Positions 2,800 to 33,878 of a stretch of 33,878 nt of DNA are shown piece by piece. Both the position numbers and the translations under genes were made by a program. Where the stretch lies: NCBI GenBank assembly GCA_021163225.1, contig JAGGXE010000052.1, forward strand, positions 1-33,878, given 5' to 3'. A model generated the notes under the pieces. It ran no database searches. It was given only the letters and a program-made list of their open reading frames with translations, and was not told the DNA's origin. Within the stretch, counting starts at the first letter, position 1; every line of letters begins with the position of its first letter. Origin of the DNA: Candidatus Micrarchaeota archaeon (GTDB lineage: Archaea; Micrarchaeota; Micrarchaeia; Anstonellales; JAGGXE01).

Positions 2800-2816
2800 A
2801 GGGGAAGTGATCGGTT

Positions 2817-3485
2817 ATGAAGATAGATATGCACGTTCATACCAGGTATTCCAAAGATGCGTTGATAACCGTCGATGACCTGGTGGATGTTTATATGGAA
2901 ACCGGGATCGTTGTTGCAGTGACCGACCATAACACAACCGATGCATGGGAACATGTCCGGATGAAAGGGATACCTTTTATCCCTGGTGAGGAGATCGATA
3001 CCGGTGAAGGCGAAGTGATAGGTCTATTTTTGAACGAATGTATACCTAAGGGTCTGGGGTTTAATGAGACGGTTGACAGGATCCGTGAGCAGGGGGGACT
3101 GGTCTATTGCCCGCATCCTTTTGACAGGTTTCGCAAATGCGTGTGCGATGAAGAGAGGATTGCCCGATGCGATATCGTAGAGGTGTTTAATTCCAGGTGC
3201 CTATTACAGAGGTTTAACGATCAGGCACTGTCCGTTGCGGAACGGTTCAACCTGTTGAAAGGCGTGGGAAGCGATGCTCATTTTCGGTTTGAGATAGGCA
3301 CATCCTACCTAACCGTTGTAGATGATGCGATTGTTTCGCCGGAGAATTTTATCAGAGCGTTATCCGACCATCCGGGGTTTCACACTTCAAAGACTACTGT
3401 AATGGTTCATGGTTTGACAAAGACGGTTTCCTTTATTCGCAATCTTAAATCTCTTCTATCCAGAAAACCTCCAGAAAAAACCTAA
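2817..3485 (+). CDS. PHP-domain metal-dependent phosphoesterase
   Basis: This 222-residue protein belongs to the polymerase-and-histidinol-phosphatase (PHP) superfamily of metal-dependent phosphoesterases. Metal-binding motifs appear in family order: HVHTRYS at residues 6-12, TDHNTTD near 36-42, a Glu in PGEEIDTGEGEV near 60, CPHPFDRF near 100, and GSDAHF near 156. It has no signal peptide or membrane segment, so it should be cytoplasmic. The ATG is preceded by a GGGGAAGTGAT Shine-Dalgarno-like sequence. It sits 17 nt after aglB and 30 nt before the flavoprotein gene, consistent with one transcript. The substrate is unknown: nucleotides, histidinol phosphate and small phosphoesters are all possible for this superfamily. 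A role in the glycosylation operon is only an inference from position. Confidence 0.88.
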   Translation: MKIDMHVHTRYSKDALITVDDLVDVYMETGIVVAVTDHNTTDAWEHVRMKGIPFIPGEEIDTGEGEVIGLFLNECIPKGLGFNETVDRIREQGGLVYCPHPFDRFRKCVCDEERIARCDIVEVFNSRCLLQRFNDQALSVAERFNLLKGVGSDAHFRFEIGTSYLTVVDDAIVSPENFIRALSDHPGFHTSKTTVMVHGLTKTVSFIRNLKSLLSRKPPEKT

Positions 3486-3515
3486 GCGGTAACTGATTAT
3501 CTCTTTGGTGGGAGG

Positions 3516-4586: not shown

Positions 4587-4601
4587 GGGTGGTGAGGTAA
4601 C

Positions 4602-5315
4602 GTGCGACGTAAAGATGGAAGGATTTCGGGAAACGTTCCGAAACATGTTGTGATCATCCCTGACGGTAACAGGAGATGGGCGCGTCGGCACGGTTTACCC
4701 ATACTTGAAGGTCACAGGCGGGGTATAGAGAAGATAAGGAACGTGATGAATTGGTGTAAAGAGTACGGGATAAAATATCTGACGATGTGGGGTTTCTCAT
4801 CCGAGAACTTTAACAGGCCCAGGGATGAGGTTATCGGGTTGATAAAACTCTTTGATGAATACCTTGACAAGGCATTAGAGGAGGTTGTCGGTCAGGACGT
4901 GCGTATCAAATTCTACGGCAGGTTGGATAGGTTCCCTAAGGGTATGCGCGGTAAGATGATGGCTTTGGAGAACGAATCCGCGCGCGGCAGATACTGTCTG
5001 AACCTGTTCCTCGGATACGGCGGCAGACAGGAAATCATAGATGCGGTCAACAGAATAATAAGCGATGTCAAACGCGGGAGGCTCAGGGTTGTTGATGAGA
5101 AGACGTTTTCATCGTACCTTTACACGTCAGACCTTCCTGACCCGGACCTGGTGATCCGCACATCCGGTGAACTGCGAACGAGCGGTTTCATGCCTTGGCA
5201 GACGGTCTACAGCGAGTTTTGGTTTACTAAAAAGTTGTGGCCGGATTTCACTAAACAGGATTTTGTGCGTGCGATCAGGTCCTATGCCGCAAGGGAGAGA
5301 CGGTTCGGAAGATGA
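4602..5315 (+). CDS. uppS: Cis-prenyltransferase (undecaprenyl/polyprenyl diphosphate synthase family)
   Basis: This enzyme condenses isopentenyl diphosphate units in cis onto an allylic primer to build the long polyprenyl diphosphate used as a glycan carrier. The signature IIPDGNRRWARRHG is at residues 18-31, with catalytic D21. Further family motifs are WGFSSENFNRP near 64-74 and the C-terminal RTSGELRTSGFMPWQ block with YSEFWF. The length of 237 residues is normal for the family. The start is a GTG preceded by GGTGGTGAGG at proper spacing. It lies 15 nt downstream of the flavoprotein gene and 22 nt upstream of the DUF192 start. The aglB-saturase-prenyltransferase arrangement suggests the product feeds protein N-glycosylation. 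Confidence 0.93.
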   Translation: MRRKDGRISGNVPKHVVIIPDGNRRWARRHGLPILEGHRRGIEKIRNVMNWCKEYGIKYLTMWGFSSENFNRPRDEVIGLIKLFDEYLDKALEEVVGQDVRIKFYGRLDRFPKGMRGKMMALENESARGRYCLNLFLGYGGRQEIIDAVNRIISDVKRGRLRVVDEKTFSSYLYTSDLPDPDLVIRTSGELRTSGFMPWQTVYSEFWFTKKLWPDFTKQDFVRAIRSYAARERRFGR

Positions 5316-5337
5316 CTTTTCTCTTGAGGTCTGTTAC

Positions 5338-5652
5338 ATGGTAGAAGTGGTCGTTGACGAGGTTGCCGGAACCCTTTTATCACAGGTCAGGGGCCTGATG
5401 TTCAGACGGAAGAGGGTCAACATACTGTTTGTGTTTAACGAAGATAAAATATGTCCGATCCATTCATGGTTCGTATTCTACCCTTTCGACGCAGTGTATC
5501 TGGACAGAAACTTTCGTGTTGTAGAAATCTTCAGAGATGTCAAACCTTTCTCGTACGTGAGACCTACCAGACCCTCCAGTTACCTGTTGGAGGTTTCGCA
5601 TCATAGACCTTCGCTACGTGTCGGTGATAGGATAGTTATAAAGACGAGGTAG
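5338..5652 (+). CDS. DUF192 family small protein
   Basis: This 104-residue protein matches the DUF192 fold family. The pattern is an RGLMFR motif near residues 18-23, then a hydrophobic strand, HSWFVFYPFDAVYLD near 43-57, and the closing GDRIVIK. The open frame extends upstream to 5167, but that part overlaps uppS in another frame and reads as a shadow. The ATG at 5338, where similarity to the family begins, is the likely start. Many bacterial DUF192 proteins are secreted; this one has no signal peptide and should be cytoplasmic. It lies 22 nt after uppS and 20 nt before the pilus ATPase gene, so it is probably co-transcribed. The molecular function of the family is not established. Confidence 0.8.
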   Translation: MVEVVVDEVAGTLLSQVRGLMFRRKRVNILFVFNEDKICPIHSWFVFYPFDAVYLDRNFRVVEIFRDVKPFSYVRPTRPSSYLLEVSHHRPSLRVGDRIVIKTR

Positions 5653-5672
5653 AATTCACAATTGCAACGTCG

Positions 5673-7163
5673 GTGGGAGTGTTGGATAAATTTAAAAATG
5701 TTGATGTAAAGTTTGTATTAAAATTGCGTAAGAACATTTCCGATGGGGCGTTGAGGATGGCTTTGGGATGGTGCGTCAAGGACGAGAAGGTCGATTATCC
5801 GATCAACCTCCCGGTATTAACTTCCGAAGAGGAAGAGGTAGTGCTGGCGGTTGCAGACCTGTTTAAAGAGCTTGCCAAATACGAAGAGTTTGAGAGCGAA
5901 GAAGAAACACGTGAGAAGATCAGAGAATTGCTTGAAGAATACTGTGTTGAGAACCAGATAGTACTCGATGAGGATCAGGAGGAGTATCTTGTTGACATCG
6001 CCACCTCTCATGTTTACGGGTTCGCCTTTTTCGACCAGTTGTTGAAAGACCCGAACATCGAAGAGATCGGTGTTATAGGGATAAACAAACCTGTTTATGT
6101 GTACGTACGCAACAAAGGCTGGCAACAGACAAACGGATACCTTACAACCGTCGAATACGCGATCGATCTGATCAACAAGATGTCCAGACAATTGGGAAGA
6201 AGGATTACCTATCAATCGCCCAGGTTGAACGCTATATTACCGGACGGTTCACGTCTTCATGCATCCATCCCCCCTATTTCAAAAGTCGAGATCACCATAC
6301 GTAAGTTCAGGGAGAACCCGTTCACAGTGTTCGACCTTCTGAGGTTTCATACGGTAAGTCCCGAAGCGTTGAGTGTCATCTGGTTACTGATGCAGTCGGA
6401 CCTTTCGGTGATTGTTGCAGGTAACACAGCATCCGGTAAAACAACGACCCTTAACGCATTGTTCTCATTTGTTCCGCTTTGGGAACGGATCCTCATCACA
6501 GAGGAAACTCCTGAGATAAACATCCCGCATAAACATAAGGTCAACCTGGTTGCAAACGAAGATCTGGGTGTGACCATCTCTTCGTTGGTAGCGGACAGTC
6601 TTCGTATGCGTCCTGATCGGGTGATCGTCGGTGAGGTGCGTACCGCTGAGGAAGTTAACGGACTTATAGATACCATACTTAGCGGTCAGGCAAGGGGTAG
6701 TTACGCCACGTTCCATGCTCAATCTTCTGTCGAAGCGTTGAGAAGGATGCATTCATTAGGGGTGTTGGAGTTCGATTTACAGTCCATCGACCTGATCATC
6801 ATACAACGGCGGATGGTTAAGTACGATGTCAAAACAAGGGAGAGTAAAGAGATCCGTCGGATCATCGAGATCGCTGAAGTGGATAAATCTTCCCTCATGA
6901 AAACTAAACCTCTGTTCAAGTACGATTTCGAAAAGGACAGGTGGACTCCCAATTATTCGAACTCCTTTTTGATCGAACGGGTTCGCCGCGTAATGGGGTT
7001 AACCAAAGCAGAACTTAAAGAAGAGTTAAGACGTCGTACCGAATTTCTCAAATCGAACATCGATAAGGGTTGGGACTTCGCAAGGTCGGTTGAAGAGATA
7101 CAGAAGTTTGCTTACGGCAAATCCGGCAAACTCGGTAGGAGAAGGTCGAAAAGAAAAAGATAG
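5673..7163 (+). CDS. Type II/IV secretion-system ATPase (TadA/VirB11/GspE-like), archaeal pilus motor
   Basis: This 496-residue cytoplasmic ATPase should power assembly of type IV pilus-like filaments. The N-terminal third is helical and acidic. The catalytic core has Walker A G250-NTASGKTT, an acidic stretch (ITEETPEINIPH), a Walker B-type segment RVIVGEVRTAEE near 318-329, and a His box (TFHAQSS) near 348. The C-terminus is strongly basic (KSGKLGRRRSKRKR). The start is GTG at 5673; there is only a weak ribosome-binding sequence. The platform protein gene follows after 31 nt, the standard ATPase-platform pairing of archaeal pili and archaella. Pilin-like genes near 32.7-33.9 kb are candidate substrates. 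Confidence 0.92.
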   Translation: MGVLDKFKNVDVKFVLKLRKNISDGALRMALGWCVKDEKVDYPINLPVLTSEEEEVVLAVADLFKELAKYEEFESEEETREKIRELLEEYCVENQIVLDEDQEEYLVDIATSHVYGFAFFDQLLKDPNIEEIGVIGINKPVYVYVRNKGWQQTNGYLTTVEYAIDLINKMSRQLGRRITYQSPRLNAILPDGSRLHASIPPISKVEITIRKFRENPFTVFDLLRFHTVSPEALSVIWLLMQSDLSVIVAGNTASGKTTTLNALFSFVPLWERILITEETPEINIPHKHKVNLVANEDLGVTISSLVADSLRMRPDRVIVGEVRTAEEVNGLIDTILSGQARGSYATFHAQSSVEALRRMHSLGVLEFDLQSIDLIIIQRRMVKYDVKTRESKEIRRIIEIAEVDKSSLMKTKPLFKYDFEKDRWTPNYSNSFLIERVRRVMGLTKAELKEELRRRTEFLKSNIDKGWDFARSVEEIQKFAYGKSGKLGRRRSKRKR

Positions 7164-7194
7164 ACCATGCAGTTTATAGGTTTGGGTAGATGAC

Positions 7195-8931
7195 ATGAAA
7201 AGTTTTGTAGAGAAATACGCGCCGAAATTCGGTAACCTTCCGTTCTACAGATGGTTTTCCGAGAAGACCTTGTCAAAACTCGAGGAAGACATCATCATGG
7301 CAGATTTCGATGTCACACCTGAAGAACTGATCAATTTTGCTTTTGCAATGGGTCTGATCCTCGGTCTATATTTTGCTCTGATGTATTACATCGTTACCTC
7401 CAACATACCTATGACGTTTGCAGTATTCCTCATCTCCTTTGCATTCATGTTCATGCTTATCAAGATGTCAGCTTATTTTGAGCGCAAGAAACGTGCCGAG
7501 ATCATGGAGGCCGACCTGCCGCTCGCGCTTCGCGCGATCGGCGTGCAACTCGATATCAAAATGCCTTTTGAGAAGGCGTTGGAACACATCGCCGAGTCGA
7601 AATACAACATCTCCTACGAATTCAAACGTGCCGTTAAAGAGATCAAAGGCGGAGCCAGTATCCCGAAAGCGTTAACCGACCTGACGAACCGTATCGATTC
7701 ACCGATCTTGAAACGTGCCGTCAACCAACTCATCATCACCTATGAGAGAGGTGGTCGTGGCGATGATATAAAACGGATCGCCAACGAGTTGATAGACATC
7801 CAATTCGCAAAGGTGAAAGAGTTCGAATCGCAGATGGCCATGATGGGTTTGATTTTCATAGCAGTTTCATCACTGATACCAGCCTTCTTCACGATCTTTG
7901 CTGTCGTAGGCGGTCTGATGATGCCCATAGACATTACGCCCGTTCACATCTGGTTAGCCTATCTCCTCCTCTTCCCGATGCTCGATGGCATAGTGATCTA
8001 CGTTATAAAATCCAGGACACCGTATTCAACAAACATACGTATAACAGACCTCAACAAAGAGATCGCTTTGATAGAGGACATGTTGGATAGGAAAGGGATA
8101 CGTTACACGTTCAGGCAGATTATGATAGCGGTAACGGGCGTGTCGATAGCAGCAGGTCTTGTCTCGGTTTTACTCGCCTACTACATGTTTCCGCAGCTTC
8201 TCATCTACTCTTTCTTTCCCTTTGTCTTTCCGGTCCTGGTATTCTTCTATCTGACGTATCTGGTTGACCAGCGCACCGCCAAGATGGAACAGATGTTACC
8301 CGATGCGTTGTTTCAGGCGGCTTCCTTGCAGAAGGGTATGAGCACGGAACGTATCATTAAAGAGATATCTAAACATGATTACGGTCCTTTATCAGAAGAG
8401 TTTGCACTTGCCTCGCGTCAGATAACGGCAGGCACATCAGTGGAAGATGCGTTATCGGACATCGCGGAGAGGAATAATTCGCTTCTTCTCGAACGTGCGG
8501 TTAACCTGTTGATCTACGGTTACCAGGTTGGAGGTAATATGTACCACGCCCTCAGAGAAACCGCCGAGGACATGTTTTCTCTGTTCGCATTGATCCGCGA
8601 GCGTAAGGCGGCTCTCGCCCTTCAGAAGTATACGATGTTACTTGGCGGTGCAGTGCTCGTTCCGATGATACTGGGAATAGTGCTTCAGGTAACCGGCGGT
8701 CTGGATATCTCCTCGATTTCCACGTACTTCGGTAAAAACGTTGACCCGTCAATGATCCTTGAGACCAGTCAGAAGGCGATCCAGTTCTACCTCGTGATCT
8801 ACGCAGCCATTACGGGTTATCTTATCGCTTCACAGGAAGGCGAAACGCGTAAGGCACTCATCTATTTTCTGTTCATGAGCATAACCGCTTTGATCCTGTT
8901 CAACATAAGCATGAACCTGAAGTTCATGTGA
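7195..8931 (+). CDS. TadC/FlaJ-like type IV pilus platform membrane protein
   Basis: This 578-residue inner-membrane protein should be the platform that couples the preceding ATPase to pilin polymerisation. It contains two T2SSF-type halves. Each has a cytoplasmic helical domain (about residues 100-205 and 365-460, with motifs such as LPLALRAIGVQL and LPDALFQAASLQKG) flanked by hydrophobic segments. Clear membrane helices lie near 45-92, 215-265, 305-350 and 480-575. It starts with ATG 31 nt after the ATPase stop. Two-domain platform proteins of this length are usual in archaea. The last codons reach 8931, and the region beyond contains a new promoter, so the operon probably ends here. Confidence 0.9.
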   Translation: MKSFVEKYAPKFGNLPFYRWFSEKTLSKLEEDIIMADFDVTPEELINFAFAMGLILGLYFALMYYIVTSNIPMTFAVFLISFAFMFMLIKMSAYFERKKRAEIMEADLPLALRAIGVQLDIKMPFEKALEHIAESKYNISYEFKRAVKEIKGGASIPKALTDLTNRIDSPILKRAVNQLIITYERGGRGDDIKRIANELIDIQFAKVKEFESQMAMMGLIFIAVSSLIPAFFTIFAVVGGLMMPIDITPVHIWLAYLLLFPMLDGIVIYVIKSRTPYSTNIRITDLNKEIALIEDMLDRKGIRYTFRQIMIAVTGVSIAAGLVSVLLAYYMFPQLLIYSFFPFVFPVLVFFYLTYLVDQRTAKMEQMLPDALFQAASLQKGMSTERIIKEISKHDYGPLSEEFALASRQITAGTSVEDALSDIAERNNSLLLERAVNLLIYGYQVGGNMYHALRETAEDMFSLFALIRERKAALALQKYTMLLGGAVLVPMILGIVLQVTGGLDISSISTYFGKNVDPSMILETSQKAIQFYLVIYAAITGYLIASQEGETRKALIYFLFMSITALILFNISMNLKFM

Positions 8932-20119: not shown

Positions 20120-20509
20120 ACAGAGGAATGAAAGATGTCAAGAATTTTAAAACTATCGAAGATGTGCGTTTTTGTGATTTGAATAGATCCGGATTAACCG
20201 TGGGAGAATTAGGTTTTCCGCCGAACTGTCTACCTACTCTCACTACACTTTCCTTTATCCTTCTGCACATATCTCCAAAAATTTATCCATAAATCATGCC
20301 CATAAACATTGAAAGGACCAAATGCTCGCGACATATCCTGCCGCATTTTCAAACCCTTACTCCGAACATTGTCAGATGCTAGAATAAGAGATCATCTGAT
20401 GAGCAGCCCTACCCAGCATGTTTGTTACAATCTTGCTGAACTCTGTTCAGCATGTTCTACGAACACACACATTTTTAAAATTTCTCTGGTTTCTAATTTT
20501 GGTGATCAG
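20120..20509. other. 390-nt intergenic region between nrdD and the surface-protein gene
   Basis: It holds the nrdD promoter on the minus strand (TATA near 20148) and, on the plus strand, a perfect palindrome at 20434-20452 plus a TATA-like ATTTTTAAAA at about 20471-20480 ahead of the surface-protein gene. A 63-codon frame at 20101-20292 has no ribosome-binding site and no recognisable content. The frame of the downstream gene is open back to 20309, but that segment looks non-coding because the signal peptide begins at 20510. Confidence 0.6.
20434..20452. promoter_or_regulatory. Palindrome TGCTGAAC-TCT-GTTCAGCA upstream of the surface-protein promoter
   Basis: An 8-bp perfect inverted repeat with a 3-nt centre lies about 20 nt upstream of the TATA-like element. 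The sequence CAGCATGTT occurs twice around it (20414-20422 and 20448-20456). It could be an operator or an RNA hairpin. Position upstream of TATA favours a DNA-binding site. Confidence 0.5.
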
Positions 20510-23500
20510 ATGGATAAGAAGGTAGTTCTTCTAATCTTGGCCATGTTTGTTGGTTTGATCGTAGGCAAAGGGATTATGGCTGACCTTCCTGTCGTCTCGA
20601 GTTCGAAAGCACCTCCCACTCCGGACTTTTCCACGTTCAAGGTTGAGGAACTTACTGCTGGTAACTCTAAACTCATGTTGATCAACTGTTCTCCTCCATA
20701 CCAACCCTTCACCCTTCATCTGAATAGGGGATGGAACCTCATCTCTATACCGGGATGGGACCCCACTGGTAATCAGTTCACCAGCATGTTCCCACCGACT
20801 GTCTTCGGTGCTTACTACTACGACCCGTGGTCTCGGTCTTATAGGATTACTTCTCGTTTGATTCTGTGTTACGGATACTGGGTCTTCTCAACAGATGACC
20901 AAGATGTAGATATGTGTATCAACCCACAGTGCGTCTGTTGTTATAACCTCACAACCGGTTGGAGTATGATAGGTGCTCCATGGGGATTGAGTTCCCCGGG
21001 ACCTGGTTTCTATTTCGGTTATGATAGTAGTACACACAGTTATTACACCCCTTCCAACTTAGAAGGTGGAAACGGGTACTTCTTCTATAACTCAGAGAGT
21101 TCTCCGTACTTCTGTATCAACTCAACATCCTACCCCTGTGTTAACCGGACAACAACCTTGATCATCTGTGAGAACCGAAGTATAACCATACCTCCCGAGT
21201 TCTCAGATGAACCGTTCACACCCATCCATAATTATACTGAGGATGAATGTTGTTGGTGTGTTGAAGGGTATAACTATCTAATCTCTCGCGGTTATTCTGT
21301 ATCTCCAGACTGGTGGTTTGACGATTGTTGGGCGATAGGTCCAGCCTCCTTAGCCTACCAGGTGACTGGAAATTCTACCCTTGTGAGTCAACTGTTAGCC
21401 TATCTCAACACAACCTGTATCCCCACCGAGTATTTTGGGAACGAATCGGAAAATGAAAGTTGTCTTAACATCTCAGTAGATAAAGGATGGAACCTCATCT
21501 CTTCGCCCTATCAAGATACAAAACTCCATCCTTCGGGAGTTGTCTATTCTTATTCTAACGGTAAATATCTTCCTGTTAAGGTGATGGTTCCCGGTATGGG
21601 GTATTGGTATTACTCTAAGGTGAGACAGAACCTAACCCTCTGCGGTAAACCGACCGATATCAAACTAACCATCTCTAAAGGACGATCGTACATCGGAGTT
21701 CCTGATGACCTATCAGTATCAACCCTTCAGTCTCAGGTTAAAGGTAAACTGTTGGTTTACGAATATCGGAATAGAACATATTCAACAGTAGATGTGTTAC
21801 ATCCTGGGCATGGTTACATGGTTGAATACGACGGTCCTGAAACTACACTTATCTTATCTCACGCGCGACCAAGACCCGAATGGCCACCTGTGTGCGTACA
21901 TGCAACTTCATATCGACTTGAACCAGGAACCAACATTATCTATATTCCAATAACAACTGCAAGTGGAATTTGGTTTGACAGTTATTCTGTTGGATCTTCC
22001 CTTCCACTATCTACAAGTTCTCTCCCATCGTATATCAATGTCTATCAGATTACACATTCTCCTTGGGGTTGGGGCACGTCCCCTGTCACTTCCTTAGATG
22101 GAAGAGGAGCGTATATTATAGGCAATGCTGATTCAAGAACGCATGTGCTAACTATTTGTGGTAACAGTTGGTTGTGTAGAGATTACTCTTACACCTCTTT
22201 CCTTAATATTACTTTGAATTGTAGTGACGAAGGTGTTTGGATCCCCCTGTTTATTCCGTATTTAGATAGACCTTCGGACAGAATAACTGTAGGCGAACTT
22301 GCAAACTGCCTTGGGTCTGACCATCCTACACTTTATGAATTAGATCCTTCTACACCGGTAAGCAGCATAGGATCTCATACAAGTGAAACGGGTGATGGTC
22401 TTCTGCCAGTACCAAGTTCCTACCCGATTTTTGGAGGAGGCGTTTATTTTGTTCATTATCCAGATTGTGATTTAGGTTATCTGTCTACTCTCGGGGGTAG
22501 GTTCTCCGATTGTCTAGATTTTTGTGATTATGAATGTGTGGACGAAGACCATGGTATTAATTCATACATAACTGCCTCTACATATCTTCAGAGCGAAACT
22601 GGAGATGTTTTTAGTATGCATACTGACAGATGCGTGCCAGATGGATCACTTATAGAGTACTACTGTTACAATAATACAATACAGTCTACAACAGTCCCTT
22701 GTGTTGAGGGTTGTTTTGAAGGATCATGCGAGCATACATGCGAGGATCACGATTCAGGTCTCGATTACTTCACACCCAGTTATGTAACAACCGAATCTGG
22801 CGATATGGATGATTACTGTAATTTGGACCACACAGGTCTGTTTGAATCCTACTGTAATGATGACGATATACCTATGAGCGTTTTCGTGCACTGTACTTGT
22901 ATGGAAGATTCTTATGGTCGCGGATATTGCACGGAGGAGCCGGAAGAACCTCCTGAAGGCTGCACAGATTACGACGATCTCTACAACCATAATTCACCAA
23001 ACGAGCTGTTAGAGGGTTCTTCTGCAGCAGACACTACAGGATACTATTATGACACATGTGTGGATGATCATACAATTCAGGAAGCGAACTGCGGTCCGGA
23101 TGGGTTCTATTACTCAACCGTGCCATGTCCGGATGGAACCGTCTGCATAGAAAGTCCTACTGGTGATTACTGCGGTACTCATTGTGGTGACGACATCTGC
23201 GAGCCCGAGTATGGAGAAGATATACACACATGTCCAGAGGACTGTGGTTGTGTTCCAGAACCCGGTTTTGAAGGTATAGAGACTACTAAATATTTCCCTC
23301 TGAACGTGGAGGTGGCGATATACTGGCATGACATGACTTTCCTCCATTCATTTGAACATAACCCGAACTACTTCCTGGTAACCCAAGAGGAGATCTATCC
23401 AGGTGATCCAACACCACCTGGTGTTCCGTCCGGTAGGTACACACACTACACAGTAAGGATGGAGGACGTTCTACCCGGGGAATGCGATCTGAACGATTTT

Positions 23501-23794
23501 GTGATGGACATCTATTTAGAACCGTACGGTGGAGATACATCCTTAGGACGAGATATATATTTCGTTAAACGTTCTTCAAGTTCCGCAGCTGAGTTCGATA
23601 TCGTTACTGTAACCTTTCACAACACAGTAATAGGACTCTATGATTACGACGACCCGCATTGTTCAGGAGACGGAACAACTCCTTGTAGAACGCGAACACA
23701 TACAGATCCTCTCTTAGGTGTAACTCTTTGGAGGAATGCAAATTACGGTGTACCACCCGGGTCGGTCAGACATCTGAAGATCTGGCAGGATTGA
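20510..23794 (+). CDS. Large secreted Cys-rich surface protein with GWNLISIP-type repeats
   Basis: This 1094-residue protein begins with a signal sequence or anchor (KKVVLLILAMFVGLIVGKG), which identifies ATG 20510 as the start; GGTGATC lies just upstream. Residues 70-640 hold about six related beta-rich units marked by RGWNLISIPG, TGWSMIGAPWG, KGWNLISSPY, KGRSYIGVPDD, GTNIIYIPI and EGVWIPLFIP. Each is followed by a Y/G-rich part ending in GYW or GYM. Between the second and third units lies an inserted CCWC-containing segment. Residues 670-920 are Cys-rich modules, including CGDDICEPEYGEDIHTCPEDCGC. A separate 175-residue C-terminal domain has no clear membrane anchor. Many N-x-S/T sequons suggest AglB-dependent glycosylation. 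Adhesin or sheath roles are guesses. Confidence 0.85.
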   Translation: MDKKVVLLILAMFVGLIVGKGIMADLPVVSSSKAPPTPDFSTFKVEELTAGNSKLMLINCSPPYQPFTLHLNRGWNLISIPGWDPTGNQFTSMFPPTVFGAYYYDPWSRSYRITSRLILCYGYWVFSTDDQDVDMCINPQCVCCYNLTTGWSMIGAPWGLSSPGPGFYFGYDSSTHSYYTPSNLEGGNGYFFYNSESSPYFCINSTSYPCVNRTTTLIICENRSITIPPEFSDEPFTPIHNYTEDECCWCVEGYNYLISRGYSVSPDWWFDDCWAIGPASLAYQVTGNSTLVSQLLAYLNTTCIPTEYFGNESENESCLNISVDKGWNLISSPYQDTKLHPSGVVYSYSNGKYLPVKVMVPGMGYWYYSKVRQNLTLCGKPTDIKLTISKGRSYIGVPDDLSVSTLQSQVKGKLLVYEYRNRTYSTVDVLHPGHGYMVEYDGPETTLILSHARPRPEWPPVCVHATSYRLEPGTNIIYIPITTASGIWFDSYSVGSSLPLSTSSLPSYINVYQITHSPWGWGTSPVTSLDGRGAYIIGNADSRTHVLTICGNSWLCRDYSYTSFLNITLNCSDEGVWIPLFIPYLDRPSDRITVGELANCLGSDHPTLYELDPSTPVSSIGSHTSETGDGLLPVPSSYPIFGGGVYFVHYPDCDLGYLSTLGGRFSDCLDFCDYECVDEDHGINSYITASTYLQSETGDVFSMHTDRCVPDGSLIEYYCYNNTIQSTTVPCVEGCFEGSCEHTCEDHDSGLDYFTPSYVTTESGDMDDYCNLDHTGLFESYCNDDDIPMSVFVHCTCMEDSYGRGYCTEEPEEPPEGCTDYDDLYNHNSPNELLEGSSAADTTGYYYDTCVDDHTIQEANCGPDGFYYSTVPCPDGTVCIESPTGDYCGTHCGDDICEPEYGEDIHTCPEDCGCVPEPGFEGIETTKYFPLNVEVAIYWHDMTFLHSFEHNPNYFLVTQEEIYPGDPTPPGVPSGRYTHYTVRMEDVLPGECDLNDFVMDIYLEPYGGDTSLGRDIYFVKRSSSSAAEFDIVTVTFHNTVIGLYDYDDPHCSGDGTTPCRTRTHTDPLLGVTLWRNANYGVPPGSVRHLKIWQD
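20729..20746 (+). repeat. 18-nt exact repeat, copy 1 (second copy 21485-21502)
   Basis: GGATGGAACCTCATCTCT is identical here and at 21485-21502 inside the surface-protein gene, encoding the GWNLIS core of two repeat units. Identity at DNA level suggests fairly recent duplication or conversion between units, or strong constraint on this core. Confidence 0.7.
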
Positions 23795-23883: not shown

Positions 23884-24602
23884 TTAATAGATGGAAAAAG
23901 GTACATAGGATTTTCCTCTGACCTCAACACGGTTTGGGAACACTTCAACAGCATAAGAAAAAGAAATATTCCCCCGATATTCATTCCCGTTAAGTCTTGC
24001 AATATTTACGTCCGGGACAACAGTTATTCGGTAGATCTGTATCTCTCCACCATCGTAATGTTTTCGGTTTGCAACATAAAAGAACGACTTACCGTTTTCC
24101 ATCCTGCTCGCAGGTTCAACACATTCCCCGATATCCATCTCATCGGCATCCTTAGGTTTTATTACCAGAAAAAAACTGTATCTGTTAAAGTAATGTCTGA
24201 TAAAATGATGAGATCCCATTTTCCATAATGCCTCTAATACTTCCGGGGACGTTCTGATGTTTCTACGAATCTCCCATTTGCAATTGTACGGTGAGTTACA
24301 TCTGTTCCACATTTTATACGCTTCTCCATCGACTGTATCAACCGAAACACGCGTATCCAACGGCATGTGAAAATAACTGGTATAAGGATAACCTTCTCCT
24401 TCAATATCAAAGACCCACACCTCTTCGTCCTCTCCGTAGAGTTCTTCAAAAGGAACGGGATGTTATCTTCGTTGAAATAGGTGAGATTAATCTCTCCTCT
24501 CCTTTGCACCCTCGCCGATCCACTCGGTACGCCTCCCGATGCACCGGCATAGGTTAAAGCTATCAGAAGGACACAGATGATCACAGTAAAAAGTTTATGC
24601 AT
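23884..24602 (-). pseudogene. Secreted protein gene split by a -1 frameshift
   Basis: Two overlapping frames together make one sensible protein of about 239 residues. The 5' frame starts at ATG 24602 with a signal peptide (MHKLFTVIICVLLIALTYAG) and reads GEINLTYFNEDNIP. The 3' frame continues from about 24450 with VPFEELYGEDEEVWVFDIEG and runs to 23884 as a beta-rich sequence with two Cys (RCNSPYNCKW). The 3' frame has a stop just upstream of the junction, so the switch must occur near 24448-24456, at a CCTTTTG run on the coding strand. A TATA-like element at 24624-24636 supports the start. It may be a mutated gene, a sequencing error or a programmed shift. No family is recognised. Confidence 0.65.
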
Positions 24603-24723
24603 GATATTGCTGACTGACACACATTAATAAATATTGCTTTATTGTTTTCTGATTCATGCCTTTACGGTCATTTGGTAACCTCTCCAGATCGTATTTGTGA
24701 ATAATTCTTTATGAAATTAATCC

Positions 24724-26027: not shown

Positions 26028-28367
26028 TCAATCTACCGCATCGTCTCTCTCTTCAAAACACTGCTTGTAATAACCACTGTCCGGGTCATCCGGATAGTAA
26101 CTGTAACATCCTTCACCGTGTTTGTCAACATAGGCATAGTACAAGGCGATGATCTTGTCAGGGTCCTCAAACACGTCACCGGCGGTACCGGAATAACTCC
26201 TCACAACGTTTCTGCAATCTGTGTTGAAGAGAAATCTTTTGATCTTGTCCGGACTACCGCAACCGTCGTGAACACCCGTCCCTCTGCGTGAGAAGAACTC
26301 ATCGATCAGGTCTTCCATTTCTAATTCGCCGTTGACGTATCCGTAGACCGCAAGATAATTGATCACCCAGTCCCTATCTTTTCTTTCATCCAATCCTATA
26401 TCTTCAAAATCGAGTCCGTCATTCTCTGCGTTGTCAAGGACGTACGAGAACGCTTCGTGATACAGGTTTGCCATTTTTCTACCTATCTCCGGATAGTCAT
26501 CACCTGTTATGTTATGGATTGCGTACATGAGGAAGGGGTCAACATCGTACCTGTCCGATTCTACTACTAGGTAGTTCCCCTTATCATCGTAGTCCCTAAG
26601 AGTCAAAGAGCACACCGCAATACCCGACCCCCTCTCTGGTGCGATATAATTGTCAATATAATCATCGTGTCTAGCCCCTATACTTTGAGCCGGTGACCCG
26701 CTCATCGCATTCTTCAGATTTGATGGCGGATCATCGTGAACATCGCACGGCATGAACGTACCGTTCCATTTATGTGATGCGATGAAATCGTTGCCCATCG
26801 GTAACAGAACGTCATCCAGTATAGAATCGTTGTACGAATATGTTGCTTCTGCAGGCGGTTTAACCGACCCGTAGAATACATCTATCACAGATGCACCAAG
26901 CCCAGTATGAAGATAACAGGAGAGACCGAACCCGTTCCACGGGAACACTACTTCCGAGACCATCGATATCGGTATTTCCGTAGAACCCGTTTTCAGCAGT
27001 TTTTCTGTATAATACCCGTAATGGTTGACCAACCATGCAGTGGCCTGAAGTCTTCTTATCTGCGTCGGATCGCTCCCGTCCACGGCTCCGAAGTACTGAT
27101 TGAACACCCCAAACCCGGATACGTTACAATATGGATTGTTGTTATAGGGTTCGTTGAAGTTGCAGACATGCATACCGAACACGCCGCTCGCAACAAGGTT
27201 CGGAATATCATGATAAAATATGTTGTACGTATGAGCTATTGTTTGGTCTGTCCAGTTGCACGTGTTAAAGGTATTGTTTCCCGGTCTGCCGCCGACGAAA
27301 AGGAGAAATGTCGGTTTATGGAAGGTTTTCACACGCATCCGCGACCTGATCATCACCTCTTTAGCCGCGTAGTACCCGTCGCATTCCTTCAGGTTGTTCA
27401 GTATCACACCGTCGGCTATGAAATCCACACAGTTTGTTTCGTTCATGATTCCGTTCCAATCAGCGCACGGTTCGGGTAGGTTATGAGTGTTCGGGTCCCT
27501 GCCGTAGACCGTAACGTTCAGTACGTAATCCGACACCTCTTTATCTGTAGAATTCAGCCATGACTGGTTGTAGGGTATCAACGGCGGCATTACACCTACA
27601 AGACAGGTCGGACATATGCGTTTGATATGTTCAGCGGCGCGTCTGACAGTCCATACATCGTCGTTGGATGGGTTATCCGGCACGCGTAACACGATCATGA
27701 CAGGTCCGACAGGTTCATCCCATCCCACCGTATCGTTAGCGGACATTATGAAAGCAAGAGATTCAACCCTACCGATGTAATCATCGCGTAATACATGGGG
27801 TTGGATCGGCGGGACTACGTACACGGGTATTTTATTGAAATAGAGGGCGGTTTCCGCACGTTCCCTTTTCGGAAGTATGAATACTGTTTCGTTGTCCGGT
27901 TCGAGCCATTTGACAGCCGAGACAAATGAGTAGTTGAGGTACCATGCCGCGTATATCGCTTCCCCGAAGGAGGACCCTTCGCCCACCATGAAATTTATCG
28001 GTACACCTCCGTAGTCGTCCAAACAGTTTTCAATACAATCTTCCCCGACATCGTTGCATCCCGAACAGGTGACGAAATCGCATCTCTCACCTTTGAGTGT
28101 GGTTTCCGATAGACCCAGCCACCTCCATAAGAAGAAGCCGGACTTATTGGTACAACCGAGCACTACGCATCTCCCTGTATCTGTGCATACGTCCGTCATT
28201 ATATCTGAGATGTTCCTCCATTCCACCGTCTTTAGAGTTGTAGTCCCTGTCTCATACCCCAAAGAGGTGTTGATCTCCGGCAACGTTGCCGGACCTTCCG
28301 TGCATCCGGAAACGAAGACCAGGAGTGTAAAGAGAACTGTTGCTAAAGCTAACGACGACCGTCTCAT
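26028..28367 (-). CDS. Large predicted lipoprotein, possibly enzyme-like
   Basis: This 779-residue protein has a signal peptide ending in a lipobox (LLVFVSGC, lipidated Cys22), so it should be anchored outside the cell. It contains many N-x-S/T sequons and Cys pairs (CVVLGC, CPTC, CGSPDK), typical of a disulfide-bonded extracellular protein. The middle (about 170-480) alternates strands and helices, for example VMIVLRVPDNPSNDDVW, TCLVGVMPPLIPYNQSW and FLLFVGGRP, which could be a TIM-barrel-like fold. Around residue 600, ESDRYDVDPFLMYAIHN faintly resembles the start of lytic-transglycosylase domains, but the catalytic Glu context is not convincing. GGTG 8 nt upstream overlaps the end of the preceding gene, so it is the last gene of that operon. 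The family is not recognised. Confidence 0.75.
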   Translation of the reverse strand: MRRSSLALATVLFTLLVFVSGCTEGPATLPEINTSLGYETGTTTLKTVEWRNISDIMTDVCTDTGRCVVLGCTNKSGFFLWRWLGLSETTLKGERCDFVTCSGCNDVGEDCIENCLDDYGGVPINFMVGEGSSFGEAIYAAWYLNYSFVSAVKWLEPDNETVFILPKRERAETALYFNKIPVYVVPPIQPHVLRDDYIGRVESLAFIMSANDTVGWDEPVGPVMIVLRVPDNPSNDDVWTVRRAAEHIKRICPTCLVGVMPPLIPYNQSWLNSTDKEVSDYVLNVTVYGRDPNTHNLPEPCADWNGIMNETNCVDFIADGVILNNLKECDGYYAAKEVMIRSRMRVKTFHKPTFLLFVGGRPGNNTFNTCNWTDQTIAHTYNIFYHDIPNLVASGVFGMHVCNFNEPYNNNPYCNVSGFGVFNQYFGAVDGSDPTQIRRLQATAWLVNHYGYYTEKLLKTGSTEIPISMVSEVVFPWNGFGLSCYLHTGLGASVIDVFYGSVKPPAEATYSYNDSILDDVLLPMGNDFIASHKWNGTFMPCDVHDDPPSNLKNAMSGSPAQSIGARHDDYIDNYIAPERGSGIAVCSLTLRDYDDKGNYLVVESDRYDVDPFLMYAIHNITGDDYPEIGRKMANLYHEAFSYVLDNAENDGLDFEDIGLDERKDRDWVINYLAVYGYVNGELEMEDLIDEFFSRRGTGVHDGCGSPDKIKRFLFNTDCRNVVRSYSGTAGDVFEDPDKIIALYYAYVDKHGEGCYSYYPDDPDSGYYKQCFEERDDAVD

Positions 28368-28378
28368 TATAAAACACC

Positions 28379-31231
28379 TTATTCAATCTCAGACATCGAT
28401 ATTATACCTTTCCTGAGCATGTGGATGATCTTGGAGATGTCCCTCTCATCGAGCCACACTTCTCCGAGATACCTGTATCTGGCAGCGTGACCGATAGCCT
28501 TTGAATAGTCCAACCTTTCGCCAGGGATCAGACGGACCGTCCTATCTTTAGGAGAGAGAAGAGTGAGTTTATACTTCGGTGTCAGCCGTTCAGGTCTGAA
28601 TACGAGTTTCGGCGGTATCTGTTCATCAGGGTTTACAAGTATTCTTTCACCGGACATTGATAAATAGTACGGCAGTTCTGAAAGCACGTCCTTAACCTTC
28701 GGCGCACTCCTTATCTTACCGGGCTTTTTCGTCATCAACTCTTCTGTCAACATCCTGTCTTCGAAATGTTCTTCGAACAGTTCATCCGCGTGTTCCGAGT
28801 ACATCGCTCCAAACCTGAGGTACGCTTTCCTCTCATCTTTCGTTTTCTCTTTAATCTCTTCGAATATCTCGCTCAACGATTTATCCCCTTCCACAGGTAT
28901 ATTGTTCAATCCTGTCTTTTCTAACGCGTTATAGTACGCCTTAATGATGTTCACCGCTCCGTTGACCTCCGATTCGTGTGCCTGGTAAGAGTGTCGGTAG
29001 GTGTTCTGTAGCGTTGTATAATACTTCTCCAGTACTTCGTCTTTGGCAGTCCACCGTTTAAACCTCTCTTCAACATCCTTTCTTATCAAATCGATGTTAA
29101 CCGTTCCGCCGGCACGTAACCTGTTGGCTATCTCAACATCGGTAATCGTTCTTACCATATGTGGCCTGTTAATCTTTATCTGTTGTTCCATCCTTTTGAT
29201 CTCCTTCTCTATCTCTTTCAACGCCTCTTCGTAAGGTTTACCTGTTGACTCAAACGTTTCCTTGGCTATCTGCGATGCGTTGGTTTTTATGTACAGGTAT
29301 TCATAAGGGTCTGGTAAAGGTTGAAAAACGTCTGCCGAATCGAACAGTACTTGCTGTATCTCCCTACGCATTCTTGTCCCGAGTGTTATAAGAGATGCAA
29401 ACATCTCCCTATCTATTTCCAATCCCTCTTTCTCTGCTTCTTTTACCATTCTGTTGACTTTAGCAGTGCTTGTGCCTTTCGGGACGGTATGCTCAAACAT
29501 CCAGTTCCATTCCTGTGTTTGTCTGTTCATATACTCGTTTACTTTGACGTATGCGGCAAGCGGGTTCGTCTCAGATGTCTCGATGTTTCTGACGTTGTGG
29601 AGACTGTTCGTTAACGCGGTGCGCACCAAGTTAACCGTCTTCTTCTGAGTCGGCGATAACGTTTCCAACACTGTTTTGCTTTCCATAAGTTTGAGCACTT
29701 CTTCCGCCTTTTCGAATTCGTTGGTAGTCGGGTCTGCAAGTATTGTTCTGAGCCTATGTTCCACGAATTTCTTTGCTGTCTCATCCCGAACATGTCGGAT
29801 CAGGAAAGATGCTGCCACATCAGCAGTTCTTCTATAGTAATCGTTCACGACCTCTGTAGGGTTGGATAGTTCTTTGATTGCTTCCTCAATGTATGCGGGC
29901 GGCATCTTCATAGGTCTTTCCAGAGCAACCGCTAACGTAGATGGAGCATGTGCAGCCCGCCTTCCGAACTCTTTAGCGCTTTCGATGGCCTCTTTTCTGG
30001 CGATATGCATCTTCACGTAGGAAGAATGCATCACCATCGTTCCGATAAGAGGTACCTTTTCAACCATTCTCACCCATCTCGGTAATCCCCTTGTCATCTC
30101 CCGGTATTTTGATAATGCTTCTTCATATTCTGCTTTGCTCACGATATAGGCATTGGTCTTCCTGTTCAACAGATCAAGAAGTTGTCGGTAACTCTTCCCG
30201 CGTGATTCTATTATCAGTTCGTCAAGCTTTTTATCCGACACCATGTCTGCCAAGACTTCACTGCTCGGGAGTTTTCGCTTACCTTCTAATATCATCACAA
30301 CATCTTTATACCGTTTTGCGAATAGGAGTTTCAGCATGTATATCTTTGCCACCGGCGATAAACCGGATCTTTTTATCCGTTCTATAAGACTCCTTTCCCG
30401 TCCGCTTCTGGCAGTTTTGTATGCGTGTTTATATGCATTCTTGAGCACAGTACCTATACCGACGGCACGTAACGCCTTCAACGCCTTCCTAACCTTTTTC
30501 CGCGATTTTATCAGACCAGCCGCACTCGGCAACTCAATTCTACTTCCCATGTCTGCCTTGGGTAACGGACCCGGGAGTTTTGGTGAGGTGATATCGAACA
30601 CTGCAAACGGGTTATCCCCTGAATAGAACATCGCCGCGAACAATAAACCGAGTATGATGAGAACGCCCACACATGCGGGCACGATATTGGGATTCTGAAA
30701 GACGTCGTTGAGGATATCTCCGAGGTTCTTAGCGTTGACCAGAACGAGTTGCGTATGCGGTAACCTTATCAATTTTTCGGACGGTTCGTAATCTCCGTAC
30801 CCGTCAAACCTTATTCTGATGCTTGCCACATCCGGCCTGTCAACAGGGACAACGCAGTCAACCTCGCCGGATGCATTGGTTATTCCTGGTGCACATCCGG
30901 GTACTGGATATTCTCCAGAACTGTTTATTATGCTTACCGTTATGTTCATGGACGGAATGGGAATGTATCTGCTGTAGGGATTTATAAGATAATCCTCGTA
31001 TGTCATCGACTCGTTTGCCCTCACAAGTTTGACTATGAGATGCGTTTCTCCGTCTTCGTGCCTGATCATCGGAAAGAGTTCTGTCGATACACTGTTAACC
31101 GTAGCGATCAGTAGAAGTATAGTGACCACTGTTACCGTATATTTAACATCGACACCTTTCGCAACACGTCCCATTAGGAACACCGATATATTGAGACAGG
31201 TCTTCAAATATAAATTTATCCTCGTGCTCAT
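28379..31231 (-). CDS. Two-TM membrane protein with large cytoplasmic coiled-coil domain
   Basis: I do not recognise this 950-residue protein. TM1 is near residues 32-48 (TVTVVTILLLIATVNSV). It is followed by an extracytoplasmic beta-rich domain with sequons and two Cys (about 50-180), then TM2 (IVPACVGVLIILGLLFAAMF, near 185-205). The remaining 740 residues are charged and mostly helical, starting with a Lys/Arg-rich stretch that fits the positive-inside rule. ATG 31231 has GGTG 9 nt upstream; ATG at codon 20 (31174) is an alternative because ATAAATTTATATTTG, a TATA-like element, lies in the extra codons. It sits in a minus-strand operon between a small helical protein and the lipoprotein (11-nt gap). 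Confidence 0.75.
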   Translation of the reverse strand: MSTRINLYLKTCLNISVFLMGRVAKGVDVKYTVTVVTILLLIATVNSVSTELFPMIRHEDGETHLIVKLVRANESMTYEDYLINPYSRYIPIPSMNITVSIINSSGEYPVPGCAPGITNASGEVDCVVPVDRPDVASIRIRFDGYGDYEPSEKLIRLPHTQLVLVNAKNLGDILNDVFQNPNIVPACVGVLIILGLLFAAMFYSGDNPFAVFDITSPKLPGPLPKADMGSRIELPSAAGLIKSRKKVRKALKALRAVGIGTVLKNAYKHAYKTARSGRERSLIERIKRSGLSPVAKIYMLKLLFAKRYKDVVMILEGKRKLPSSEVLADMVSDKKLDELIIESRGKSYRQLLDLLNRKTNAYIVSKAEYEEALSKYREMTRGLPRWVRMVEKVPLIGTMVMHSSYVKMHIARKEAIESAKEFGRRAAHAPSTLAVALERPMKMPPAYIEEAIKELSNPTEVVNDYYRRTADVAASFLIRHVRDETAKKFVEHRLRTILADPTTNEFEKAEEVLKLMESKTVLETLSPTQKKTVNLVRTALTNSLHNVRNIETSETNPLAAYVKVNEYMNRQTQEWNWMFEHTVPKGTSTAKVNRMVKEAEKEGLEIDREMFASLITLGTRMRREIQQVLFDSADVFQPLPDPYEYLYIKTNASQIAKETFESTGKPYEEALKEIEKEIKRMEQQIKINRPHMVRTITDVEIANRLRAGGTVNIDLIRKDVEERFKRWTAKDEVLEKYYTTLQNTYRHSYQAHESEVNGAVNIIKAYYNALEKTGLNNIPVEGDKSLSEIFEEIKEKTKDERKAYLRFGAMYSEHADELFEEHFEDRMLTEELMTKKPGKIRSAPKVKDVLSELPYYLSMSGERILVNPDEQIPPKLVFRPERLTPKYKLTLLSPKDRTVRLIPGERLDYSKAIGHAARYRYLGEVWLDERDISKIIHMLRKGIISMSEIE

Positions 31232-31235
31232 CCAT
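31143..31235 (-). CDS. Possible 30-residue overlapping ORF ending in Cys-rich tail
   Basis: An ATG at 31235, 5 nt after GGTG, opens a frame that overlaps the start of the large coiled-coil gene and ends in CCERCRC before TAA. It is better placed relative to the ribosome-binding site than the large ORF's own ATG. It may be a small protein, a leader peptide controlling the downstream gene, or chance. Confidence 0.2.
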   Translation of the reverse strand: MDEHEDKFIFEDLSQYIGVPNGTCCERCRC

Positions 31236-31325
31236 GGTTACACCTTTTTTGCCTCTTCTATTATTCAAAAGATTCTTTCATAGATACGGTCAGCAGACGG
31301 TCCGTGGATTCCGACACGTAAAGGT

Positions 31326-31406
31326 CTATATCTTCAGTGCTTTTTCTCTTACTAACTGGGAATGATTTTCTACATCTTCCTTGGTCGTTTTTGTTTTTAC
31401 TTCCAT
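31326..31406 (-). CDS. Tiny 26-residue ORF with strong Shine-Dalgarno site
   Basis: The frame starts at ATG 31406 after TAGGAGG, where the TAG is the stop codon of the preceding gene, a classic coupling arrangement. It reads MEVKTKTTKEDVENH and ends KALKI at 31326. A -1 shift at the run of five A residues would extend it by about 25 residues (EDIDLYVSESTDRLL) to a TAA at 31261. The sequence is hydrophilic and possibly helical. The ribosome-binding site is the main argument that it is translated. Confidence 0.4.
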   Translation of the reverse strand: MEVKTKTTKEDVENHSQLVREKALKI

Positions 31407-31417
31407 GCTAAAACCTC

Positions 31418-32017
31418 CTATTTTTCCTGTTGTTTCATAAACAACCGTTTGTAGATGGCCCTCAATGTATCTATTCCTTCACGATAGGATGTCCTGAGTT
31501 CTGTAAGGTCCAGCGGTAAACTGTTCATTGCTGTTGTCCCATATTCTATCGCCCTCTCAAAGGCGACCCTGGCTTGCTCTTCTGTTAGCAGATGGAAGTT
31601 CTTCTCAATAAATTCACACATCCCCATGAACGCCATGCTGGGATTATCTTTATTGGTTTTGTCATAGAGTTTGATCACCCTGTTAAAATATTCCTGTTTA
31701 AGCGAATCGTCTATCTCAGAGAAATGATCGCCGATGAACGTCGCGGATAAGAGCGGGTCGCGTTCATAAATCTTAAGATGATCTGAAAACTCCTTCCATG
31801 ATATGTGTGGTTTTTCTACCTGTTCTGTTTTGCCTTTTGATTCCATACTTTCTTTGACCTTTCTAACCGCCGGATGCATCTCAGGATATGCTGCTGTAAT
31901 CGTGGACAGAAGCACAGCAAAGGTAGCAAGTTTTCTAATCATCTTTCGACCAGACTTTTTAGTTTGTTTTCTTTTTGGATTTTGTTCAGATGTCCGAACG
32001 TCTTTCATGTGTATCAT
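31418..32017 (-). CDS. Unknown helical protein, possibly exported
   Basis: I do not recognise this 199-residue protein. A basic N-terminus (NPKRKQTKKSGRK) is followed by a hydrophobic stretch (KLATFAVLLSTITAAYP, near 29-45) that could be a signal peptide or anchor. The rest is predicted all-helical and acidic, with TPR-like spacing (WKEFSDHLKIYERDPLLSA, EYFNRVIKLYDKTNKDNP, EQARVAFERAIEYG). Possible starts are ATG 32017, 32008 or 31942. A TATA-like CCTTTAAATATG at 32021-32032 predicts transcription from about 32002, so the true start may be the internal ATG at 31942 directly before the hydrophobic segment. It heads the minus-strand operon with the tiny ORF, the coiled-coil protein and the lipoprotein. 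Confidence 0.65.
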   Translation of the reverse strand: MIHMKDVRTSEQNPKRKQTKKSGRKMIRKLATFAVLLSTITAAYPEMHPAVRKVKESMESKGKTEQVEKPHISWKEFSDHLKIYERDPLLSATFIGDHFSEIDDSLKQEYFNRVIKLYDKTNKDNPSMAFMGMCEFIEKNFHLLTEEQARVAFERAIEYGTTAMNSLPLDLTELRTSYREGIDTLRAIYKRLFMKQQEK

Positions 32018-32730: not shown

Positions 32731-32752
32731 ACCTTCCTTTTAAATTTTGAAC

Positions 32753-33313
32753 ATGGGTAGAGGATTTGCCTTTTCGTTTGATGCATTCGTAGCGTTCATG
32801 CTTGCCATGGTTGTCATAGCCACATTGTTTGCATTCGTTAACAAACCGTACGGTTATTACGATGAATACAGACAGATGTATCTGATAGGAAGGGATACCA
32901 TAGAAACCATGAGCAGGGCCGAATATTCAGCAAACCGGACGTATATGGAGGAGTTTGCCTCGCAACTGGATTCTTCTCCTGAGGGGGCTTGCAACCTTGT
33001 CCGCAATTTTATCCCTGTACAGTATGCATTCAGGATTGAAGAGTACAACAACGATACCGACTCCTGGGATTTAGTGTGCGAGAAAAAGAGGTTGGAAGGA
33101 AGCGAACATACCCATCTAGGATGCGATGATTTTGCAAAACTTAAAGTCACATTACCGTTCATCGTAGTTGAAGATTCTGTACCTCCGTCAACTGATCAGC
33201 AGTACGGGTACAACGGATGCACCGGTGAATGGACACCCTGCGCCACACCGGAATCGGTTTTCGAACCGGGTTCTTTAGAGAATAGATTGTTACGGTTGGT
33301 GATCTGCGTATGA
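32753..33313 (+). CDS. Type IV pilin-like protein
   Basis: This 186-residue protein has the N-terminal layout of archaeal class III (prepilin-type) substrates. A short basic start MGRGFAFSFDAF is followed by a long hydrophobic helix (VAFMLAMVVIATLFAFV) and an extracellular domain with four or more Cys. The frame opens six bases earlier at a TTG, but ATG 32753 lies at leaderless spacing from the TATA box. The next gene starts with an ATGA overlap, so the two are translationally coupled. The pilus motor genes at 5.7-8.9 kb are the obvious assembly partners, though distant. It could instead be a surface protein that only resembles a pilin at its anchor. Confidence 0.7.
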   Translation: MGRGFAFSFDAFVAFMLAMVVIATLFAFVNKPYGYYDEYRQMYLIGRDTIETMSRAEYSANRTYMEEFASQLDSSPEGACNLVRNFIPVQYAFRIEEYNNDTDSWDLVCEKKRLEGSEHTHLGCDDFAKLKVTLPFIVVEDSVPPSTDQQYGYNGCTGEWTPCATPESVFEPGSLENRLLRLVICV

Positions 33314-33878
33314 AAAAGGGGTTTGCATTTACTCTGACGATGTTGGTGGTGATGTTCTTTGTGGTCACGGCGGTTACTTTGTGGGCGCAGGCCCAGGAGC
33401 AGAAAGAGAAACAGATATCGCAATCTATGAAATACTATGTTGTGTCCCAAGGTATGCAGTTGTTGAACGAAGAAGTGATCACACGGTTCTCCAACAGGTC
33501 CGCTTACTACGCATTGTACAAACTCGCTAACTGGACGGTTGACCATCCTTTGAGAGAGGGTGGAGACCTGCCGACAACCATTGGCGGACCGCTGGATCAT
33601 AAAGATGTTGCCAATGTAAACAAATCTATATACATGTTGATGATGAACGGCACTGCCGAAGAAAACCTTTTTACCGACAATGATGCGCTTAAGTACACAC
33701 CCGAAGAAAAGAAGGAGTATACGTTCAACGGGTTCGTCAGCAAGGTTGAAACATCGTGTAACGCGCTCGGTCTGAACTGTTCCCTCAGTCAGCCCAGAAA
33801 CTTCTCCTTTATACAGGTCGACCCATGGACGGTTCAACTGTATTTTGAAGTGGACAGAAACATTACAACTCTGGACGG
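33310..33878 (+). CDS. Pilin-like protein, 3' end outside window
   Basis: The frame starts at ATG 33310, overlapping the previous stop as ATGA, and stays open to the window end (189 codons). The N-terminus, MKKGFAFTLTMLVVMFFVVT, again has a short basic start and a hydrophobic helix like archaeal prepilins. The following segment (QAQEQKEKQISQSMKYYVV) is the helical stalk expected after it. The rest carries sequons (NWT, NKS, NGT, NCS, NFS, NIT) and a Cys pair, typical of an exported domain. On the opposite strand there is a 213-codon open frame that looks like a shadow. Confidence 0.72.
   Translation, partial: MKKGFAFTLTMLVVMFFVVTAVTLWAQAQEQKEKQISQSMKYYVVSQGMQLLNEEVITRFSNRSAYYALYKLANWTVDHPLREGGDLPTTIGGPLDHKDVANVNKSIYMLMMNGTAEENLFTDNDALKYTPEEKKEYTFNGFVSKVETSCNALGLNCSLSQPRNFSFIQVDPWTVQLYFEVDRNITTLD

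Follow-up and report, generated by a model that had tools for sequence, protein, structure and literature searches.

The window, by which we mean the whole stretch of 33,878 nucleotides analysed here, is contig C52 (33.9 kb) of a genome of 880 kb in 63 contigs that is 97% complete. Its host belongs to the order Anstonellales of the phylum Micrarchaeota, as do the window's relatives. Four open reading frames on the minus strand, present in the sequence at the positions given in the earlier note, make up the locus: a 199-aa gene (31418..32017), whose helical product is rich in lysine and has an N-terminus resembling a signal sequence; a 26-codon ORF (31326..31406; 26 aa) with a GGAGG ribosome-binding site; gene B (28379..31231), encoding a 950-aa membrane protein with an Ig-like-looking outer domain and a helical inner part of ~735 aa; and gene C (26028..28367), encoding a 779-aa surface lipoprotein with a GH-A-like barrel and a lytic-transglycosylase-like domain. 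The start of B probably lies nearer to Met20 (31174). Gaps of 11, 94 and 11 nt separate the four frames in this order, and the GGAGG- or AAGGTG-type ribosome-binding sites said to overlap the preceding stop codons were found at the first and third junctions but not across the 94 nt ahead of B.

The locus had been taken for a four-gene operon. The conserved module is instead the two genes B and C: searches of 38 relatives yielded no homologue of the 199-aa protein, and for the 26-codon ORF evidence of conservation was likewise absent. The 199-aa protein is thus lineage-specific, and it has no sequence similarity to the similar exported proteins encoded beside a set of membrane protein genes (family A, described below) on contig C48 of the same genome. 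Downstream of the 26-codon ORF another frame stays open, and the ORF could be a fragment of a gene of ~48 codons.

Elsewhere in the window, one run on the plus strand (1-8931) combines genes for N-glycosylation and type IV pili, encoding an STT3/AglB-like oligosaccharyl transferase, a PilB-type ATPase and a T2SSF platform protein. Its type IV pilus-like genes occupy 5673-8931, and pilin-like ORFs start at 32747: two consecutive small proteins (32747-33876, plus strand, opposite to B and C) have hydrophobic N-termini like those of archaeal class III pilins (GRGFAFSFDAFVAFML, KKGFAFTLTMLVVMFF). PilB-type ATPases, TadC/T2SSF platform proteins and class III pilins are all absent from B, C and family A. 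At 23884-24620 (minus strand) a signal-peptide-like start in one frame (24620 downwards) is continued by a well-formed open frame that is shifted relative to it and runs to 23884, apparently an exported-protein gene broken by a frameshift or an assembly error. A 1161-aa ORF at 20309-23794 (plus strand) had no Pfam matches.

Conservation and domains of proteins B and C

Searches with single sequences detected B in 28 and C in 28 of 39 genomes (the window's genome counted), and profile searches raised these numbers to 34 and 38, respectively. Among 28 loci of this system (System I), C immediately follows B in 23, often with an overlap of a few nucleotides. Of the exceptions, L067 has one intervening gene, contig ends truncate L083 and L093, and the contig of L092 stops just after B, leaving L089 as the only locus truly without C beside B. 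These results bear out the earlier suggestion of an envelope module for B and C, which are co-conserved and carry no family name. Across the phylum B was found in 92/295 Micrarchaeota genomes, and within Anstonellales in 74/82; it is also present in assembly LFW-35, identified as 'Ca. Anstonella stagnisolia' (PMC8561730). Host-family labels change 10 times on the tree of B, which is the minimum (16.7 when the labels were shuffled), and no viral contigs encoding B were found, indicating that B and C are a chromosomal module passed on vertically. On the same grounds, the absence of B from viral contigs and a tree that follows host families, the reading as a mobile element or provirus was dropped.

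Protein B had been described as a coiled-coil protein with two transmembrane segments and 740 residues inside. Two hydrophobic segments are indeed present, at about residues 27 and 177-205, with ~735 residues following the second. However, alignment of the family shows the first to be N-terminal and signal-peptide-like, with a short Ig-like-looking domain between the two, so that a single-pass protein displaying this domain on the outside is more likely. In the family the outer domain has an Ig-like look and often contains cysteines. The Ig reading rests on the appearance of this motif, as the sole Pfam match to the N-terminus was a faint Ig-like one (Big_3_5, E 0.043); a PDB search with the same region returned no significant match. 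Conservation in the family is highest in a signature at the second transmembrane segment (30566..30673, minus strand; residues 187-222), with the consensus GLLxASMYYSGxNPLSLFDITTPRLP and reading FYSGDNPFAVFDITSPKLP in the window copy. The inner part is rich in Lys, Arg and Glu and ranges from about 700 to 2000 residues. At seven loci an anchored single-HKD protein of phospholipase-D type (nuclease-like) is encoded upstream of B.

Protein C carries a lipobox (FVSGC, Cys22), as do its family members, confirming that it is a large lipoprotein. The earlier note had recognised none of the families, and Pfam and NCBIfam likewise gave no confident match for the 199-aa protein, B or C; C is nevertheless recognisable through its relatives. 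An AlphaFold2 model of C based on 23 homologues places a beta/alpha barrel in the first half of the protein (27138..28010, minus strand; approx. residues 120-410), for which the best Foldseek matches were glycosidases of the GH-A clan (E 1.7e-5). TM-scores normalised by target were 0.25-0.54, so the GH-A likeness is a statement at the level of fold only. The window copy has Arg in place of a Glu that follows the putative beta-4 strand and that 44 of 48 homologues retain. Towards the C-terminus, a helical region (26115..26582, minus strand; approx. residues 596-751) aligns with the SLT/lytic-transglycosylase domain of relatives, most of which contain the motif DxDPxLxRAIxxxESxF...GLMQ...YNPFN, a motif of lytic transglycosylase type. 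Pfam SLT (PF01464) matched 8/23 family members at E <= 1 (best 2.2e-5), the window's own C not being matched by it, and all five PDB matches to the C profile, weak as they were (E 0.03-0.95), were transglycosylases (e.g. MltC) or the related EtgA protein. The putative catalytic Glu of this domain is kept in 36/41 homologues covering the site (some genomes counted twice) and is replaced by Thr in the window copy (DPFLMYAIHNITGD). By sequence and modelled fold, the C family thus has the look of glycan-acting proteins. The window's C, lacking both putative catalytic residues, probably binds rather than cuts: its enzyme activity was probably lost and a binding or structural role retained.

The same losses could be read as a system in decay in the window's lineage, and the lineage-specific 199-aa gene and the perhaps fragmentary 26-codon ORF would fit. 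Yet the frames of B and C are intact and align along the length of their families, as are six family A genes (C48) and a second complete system (C15) in this genome. The Glu is missing from the closest relatives, G002 and G008, as well, indicating that its loss is old and tolerated; we regard decay as very improbable.

Attachment, signalling and secretion had all been put forward as roles for these genes. The signalling reading was dropped, as sensor and regulator domains are absent from both B and C; secretion is among the readings considered below.

CedA-like membrane proteins and VirB4-like ATPases

In many relatives, B and C lie divergently beside five or six tandem genes for polytopic membrane proteins (family A). 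A paralogous System II comprises five or more A genes followed by a lipoprotein gene (C') and a B homologue (B'), all in one direction. The window genome has six A genes on contig C48 and a complete second set on C15, with six A genes followed by C' and B'; its B-C pair, the A genes belonging to it and the ATPase are on separate contigs. The extended third A gene of System II encodes a protein of 900-970 aa (L181:7983-10691, L236:3921-6827), reminiscent of the extended VirB6 paralogues that Rickettsiales have.

Among families with a plausible link, A matched only CedE (best 2.5e-4, 3/67 members) and CedA (8e-3, 2 members). These are VirB6-like proteins required for DNA import in Sulfolobales, CedE also being required for export (PMC11868833, PMC9905601). 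The single match of the CedA model (NCBIfam NF041796) in the window genome was likewise an A gene (E 1.9e-5), although its 22.8 bits against a curated cut-off of 330 mark it as similar to, and not a member of, the curated family. A PDB search with family A gave no significant match, and an AlphaFold2 model of one A protein (pLDDT 78) had no Foldseek match, VirB6 included, in the PDB or the BFVD viral library. Weak profile matches and gene context hint at a VirB6 identity of A. Family A occurs in 256/295 Micrarchaeota genomes, as compared to 92/295 for B (at different E cut-offs); A being far more widespread, B and C supplement the core rather than belonging to it. Many Micrarchaeota genomes carry A without a detectable B, and other orders of the class may have a simpler CedA-like system.

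The window genome encodes a VirB4/CedB-like ATPase (L183:1655-3175, C1:21874-23439; CedB 1e-20, AAA_10 1e-13). On contig C19 an A gene at the contig edge is followed by a gene for a two-TM protein and then by the ATPase. The two-TM protein matches CedB residues 31-195 (E 4e-4) and the ATPase residues 251-545, suggesting that this N-domain protein and the ATPase correspond to a CedB divided between two genes. All 39 genomes (39/39) have the ATPase, usually in two copies, though copies and systems do not correspond one to one (G008 has one ATPase and two systems). A plasmid search with the ATPase found distant VirB4/DUF87 proteins only, at coverage under 70%. At L228 and L217 a small protein with the look of a VirB2 pilin directly precedes A, the N-domain protein and the ATPase, and a relative of this pilin candidate in L226 matched Pfam T4SS_pilin (1.6e-4) and TrbC (6e-4) (one member); in the window genome the contig stops inside the A gene, short of the corresponding position. 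A second VirB4-like ATPase locus has a conserved order (L216:3943-11261; relatives L221, L224, L227, L229 and L232), consisting of N-domain protein, ATPase, a two-TM protein (PrgI, faint, E 0.0023), a coiled coil and a two-TM protein of 835-860 aa.

The paralogous set links these components directly. In G004 (contig C46) one strand carries, unbroken, six A genes and then a gene that takes the place of the lipoprotein, followed by B', the genes for the N-domain protein and ATPase, and one for a coiled coil, so that B' is joined to A and ATPase genes in one operon, whereas the window genome has them apart. The G004 protein in the lipoprotein position has 1294 aa and fell below detection by the C profile at the cut-off used. 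A partial operon in G012 runs from C' through B' and the N-domain protein to the ATPase. Gene order in relatives thus suggests that the window's module belongs with the CedA-like membrane proteins and the VirB4-like ATPase encoded elsewhere in its genome.

This linkage also bears on whether B and C form a stand-alone module for attachment to a host or surface, in which C would bind or cut glycan with B as its membrane partner, and A would have another role (e.g. S-layer or lipid export). C does bear two glycan-related domains, and other DPANN archaea have large extracellular proteins with murein-like-transglycosylase domains, possible cell-wall binders (PMC8204110). The separation of the A genes from B and C in the window genome and the VirB6 fold of A, unconfirmed by fold search, point the same way. 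But two paralogous systems both group five or six A genes with a lipoprotein and B, and the G004 run of A, lipoprotein and B' continues straight into the CedB-like N-domain and ATPase genes, making stand-alone attachment unlikely.

A candidate transfer machine and its relation to known systems

The explanation that we favour, and hold to be probable, is that a transfer machine of the T4SS/Ced superfamily, encoded on the chromosome, includes B as its envelope-spanning part and C as its surface part. Six tandem CedA/VirB6-like A proteins (contig C48) would form the membrane channel. B would cross the membrane as a scaffold, its helical inner part of 700-2000 residues tying the channel to the VirB4/CedB-like ATPase, and the motor would be this ATPase, split into N-domain protein and motor protein (contigs C19 and C1). 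C, a lipoprotein on the outside, would take the place of VirB1 and bind glycan at the cell surface, allowing the channel to pass or dock; in most relatives it may cut that glycan. The parts would act in one complex, with DNA (or protein) as the cargo. Of the earlier proposal of a new envelope machine for attachment, signalling or secretion, the machine and the secretion guess accord with this model.

A variant compatible with this model is a T4SS-derived machine whose cargo is proteins or effectors delivered to a partner cell, with no movement of DNA. Many T4SSs have switched their cargo from DNA to protein, a precedent for such a shift. The Patescibacteria, a group of bacterial episymbionts, have retained a T4SS that includes components indispensable for epibiotic growth (PMC12102498). 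However, the nearest matches here are the DNA-transfer proteins CedA, CedE and CedB, and the nuclease-like protein of phospholipase-D type stands beside B in seven loci; we judge the protein-only variant to be rather doubtful.

As a more tentative generalization of the transfer-machine model, which we put at somewhat below even chances, Anstonellales may possess two such machines in parallel, both derived from the T4SS. Each would combine about six channel paralogues of VirB6 type with B as a giant cytoplasmic scaffold and with C as a VirB1-like lipoprotein that acts on glycan, and would serve the exchange of DNA or protein with partner cells. This would be an archaeal counterpart of the Patescibacteria T4SS in which a transglycosylase fold was recruited to non-murein envelopes.

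In the open-access papers searched, no description of such a system in Micrarchaeota was found, and none is mentioned in the available parts of papers on Ced/Ted, the Patescibacteria T4SS, Micrarchaeota genomes and the ARMAN organism Mia14. B and C probably belong to a lineage-wide relative of the bacterial conjugation (T4SS) machine that is apparently undescribed. Exchange of DNA, proteins or nutrients between DPANN archaea and other cells is an open question, and the system points to a possible route by which DNA or proteins could move from cell to cell in this mostly symbiotic group. It offers a concrete gene set to test, with family A in 256/295 Micrarchaeota genomes and the ATPase in all 39 Anstonellales examined. 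Archaea are without murein, and a VirB1-like lipoprotein in such cells raises the questions of which glycan it meets and whether the wall-opening step of the T4SS superfamily has been kept in archaea.

The best functional matches of both family A and the ATPase are Ced (Sulfolobales) and Ted (Thermoproteales). As proposed for the present system, both are T4SS-like sets on archaeal chromosomes that comprise a polytopic CedA/VirB6 channel and a CedB/VirB4 ATPase (PMC9905601, PMC11868833); a VirB2-like pilin candidate, found here in relatives of the window genome, may add to the likeness. Unlike Ced/Ted, which have one or two channel paralogues per system, the present systems have five or six putative ones, their ATPase is split into two genes and they occur in a different phylum. 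They also add the B scaffold and the C lipoprotein with its glycan-related domains, neither of which is described for Ced/Ted in the portions of PMC9905601 and PMC11868833 available.

The bacterial VirB/VirD4 T4SS, especially in its monoderm and Patescibacteria versions (PMC12102498), resembles the present system in having a VirB1-like lytic transglycosylase and a VirB4-like part, to which candidate VirB2- and VirB6-like parts may be added, and its Patescibacteria hosts resemble Micrarchaeota in being ultra-small, mostly symbiotic cells. It differs in that no VirB8, VirB9 or VirB10 was seen here, and in that C, compared to bacterial VirB1, is a lipoprotein with a GH-A-like barrel ahead of the transglycosylase-like domain. 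Finally, the murein-transglycosylase-domain proteins of Woesearchaeota and Pacearchaeota resemble C in placing a lytic-transglycosylase-like domain on a DPANN surface protein (PMC8204110). Those proteins reach 3000 aa and have no described link to a secretion machine (PMC8204110), whereas C is paired with B and, through B, with CedA-like and VirB4-like genes.
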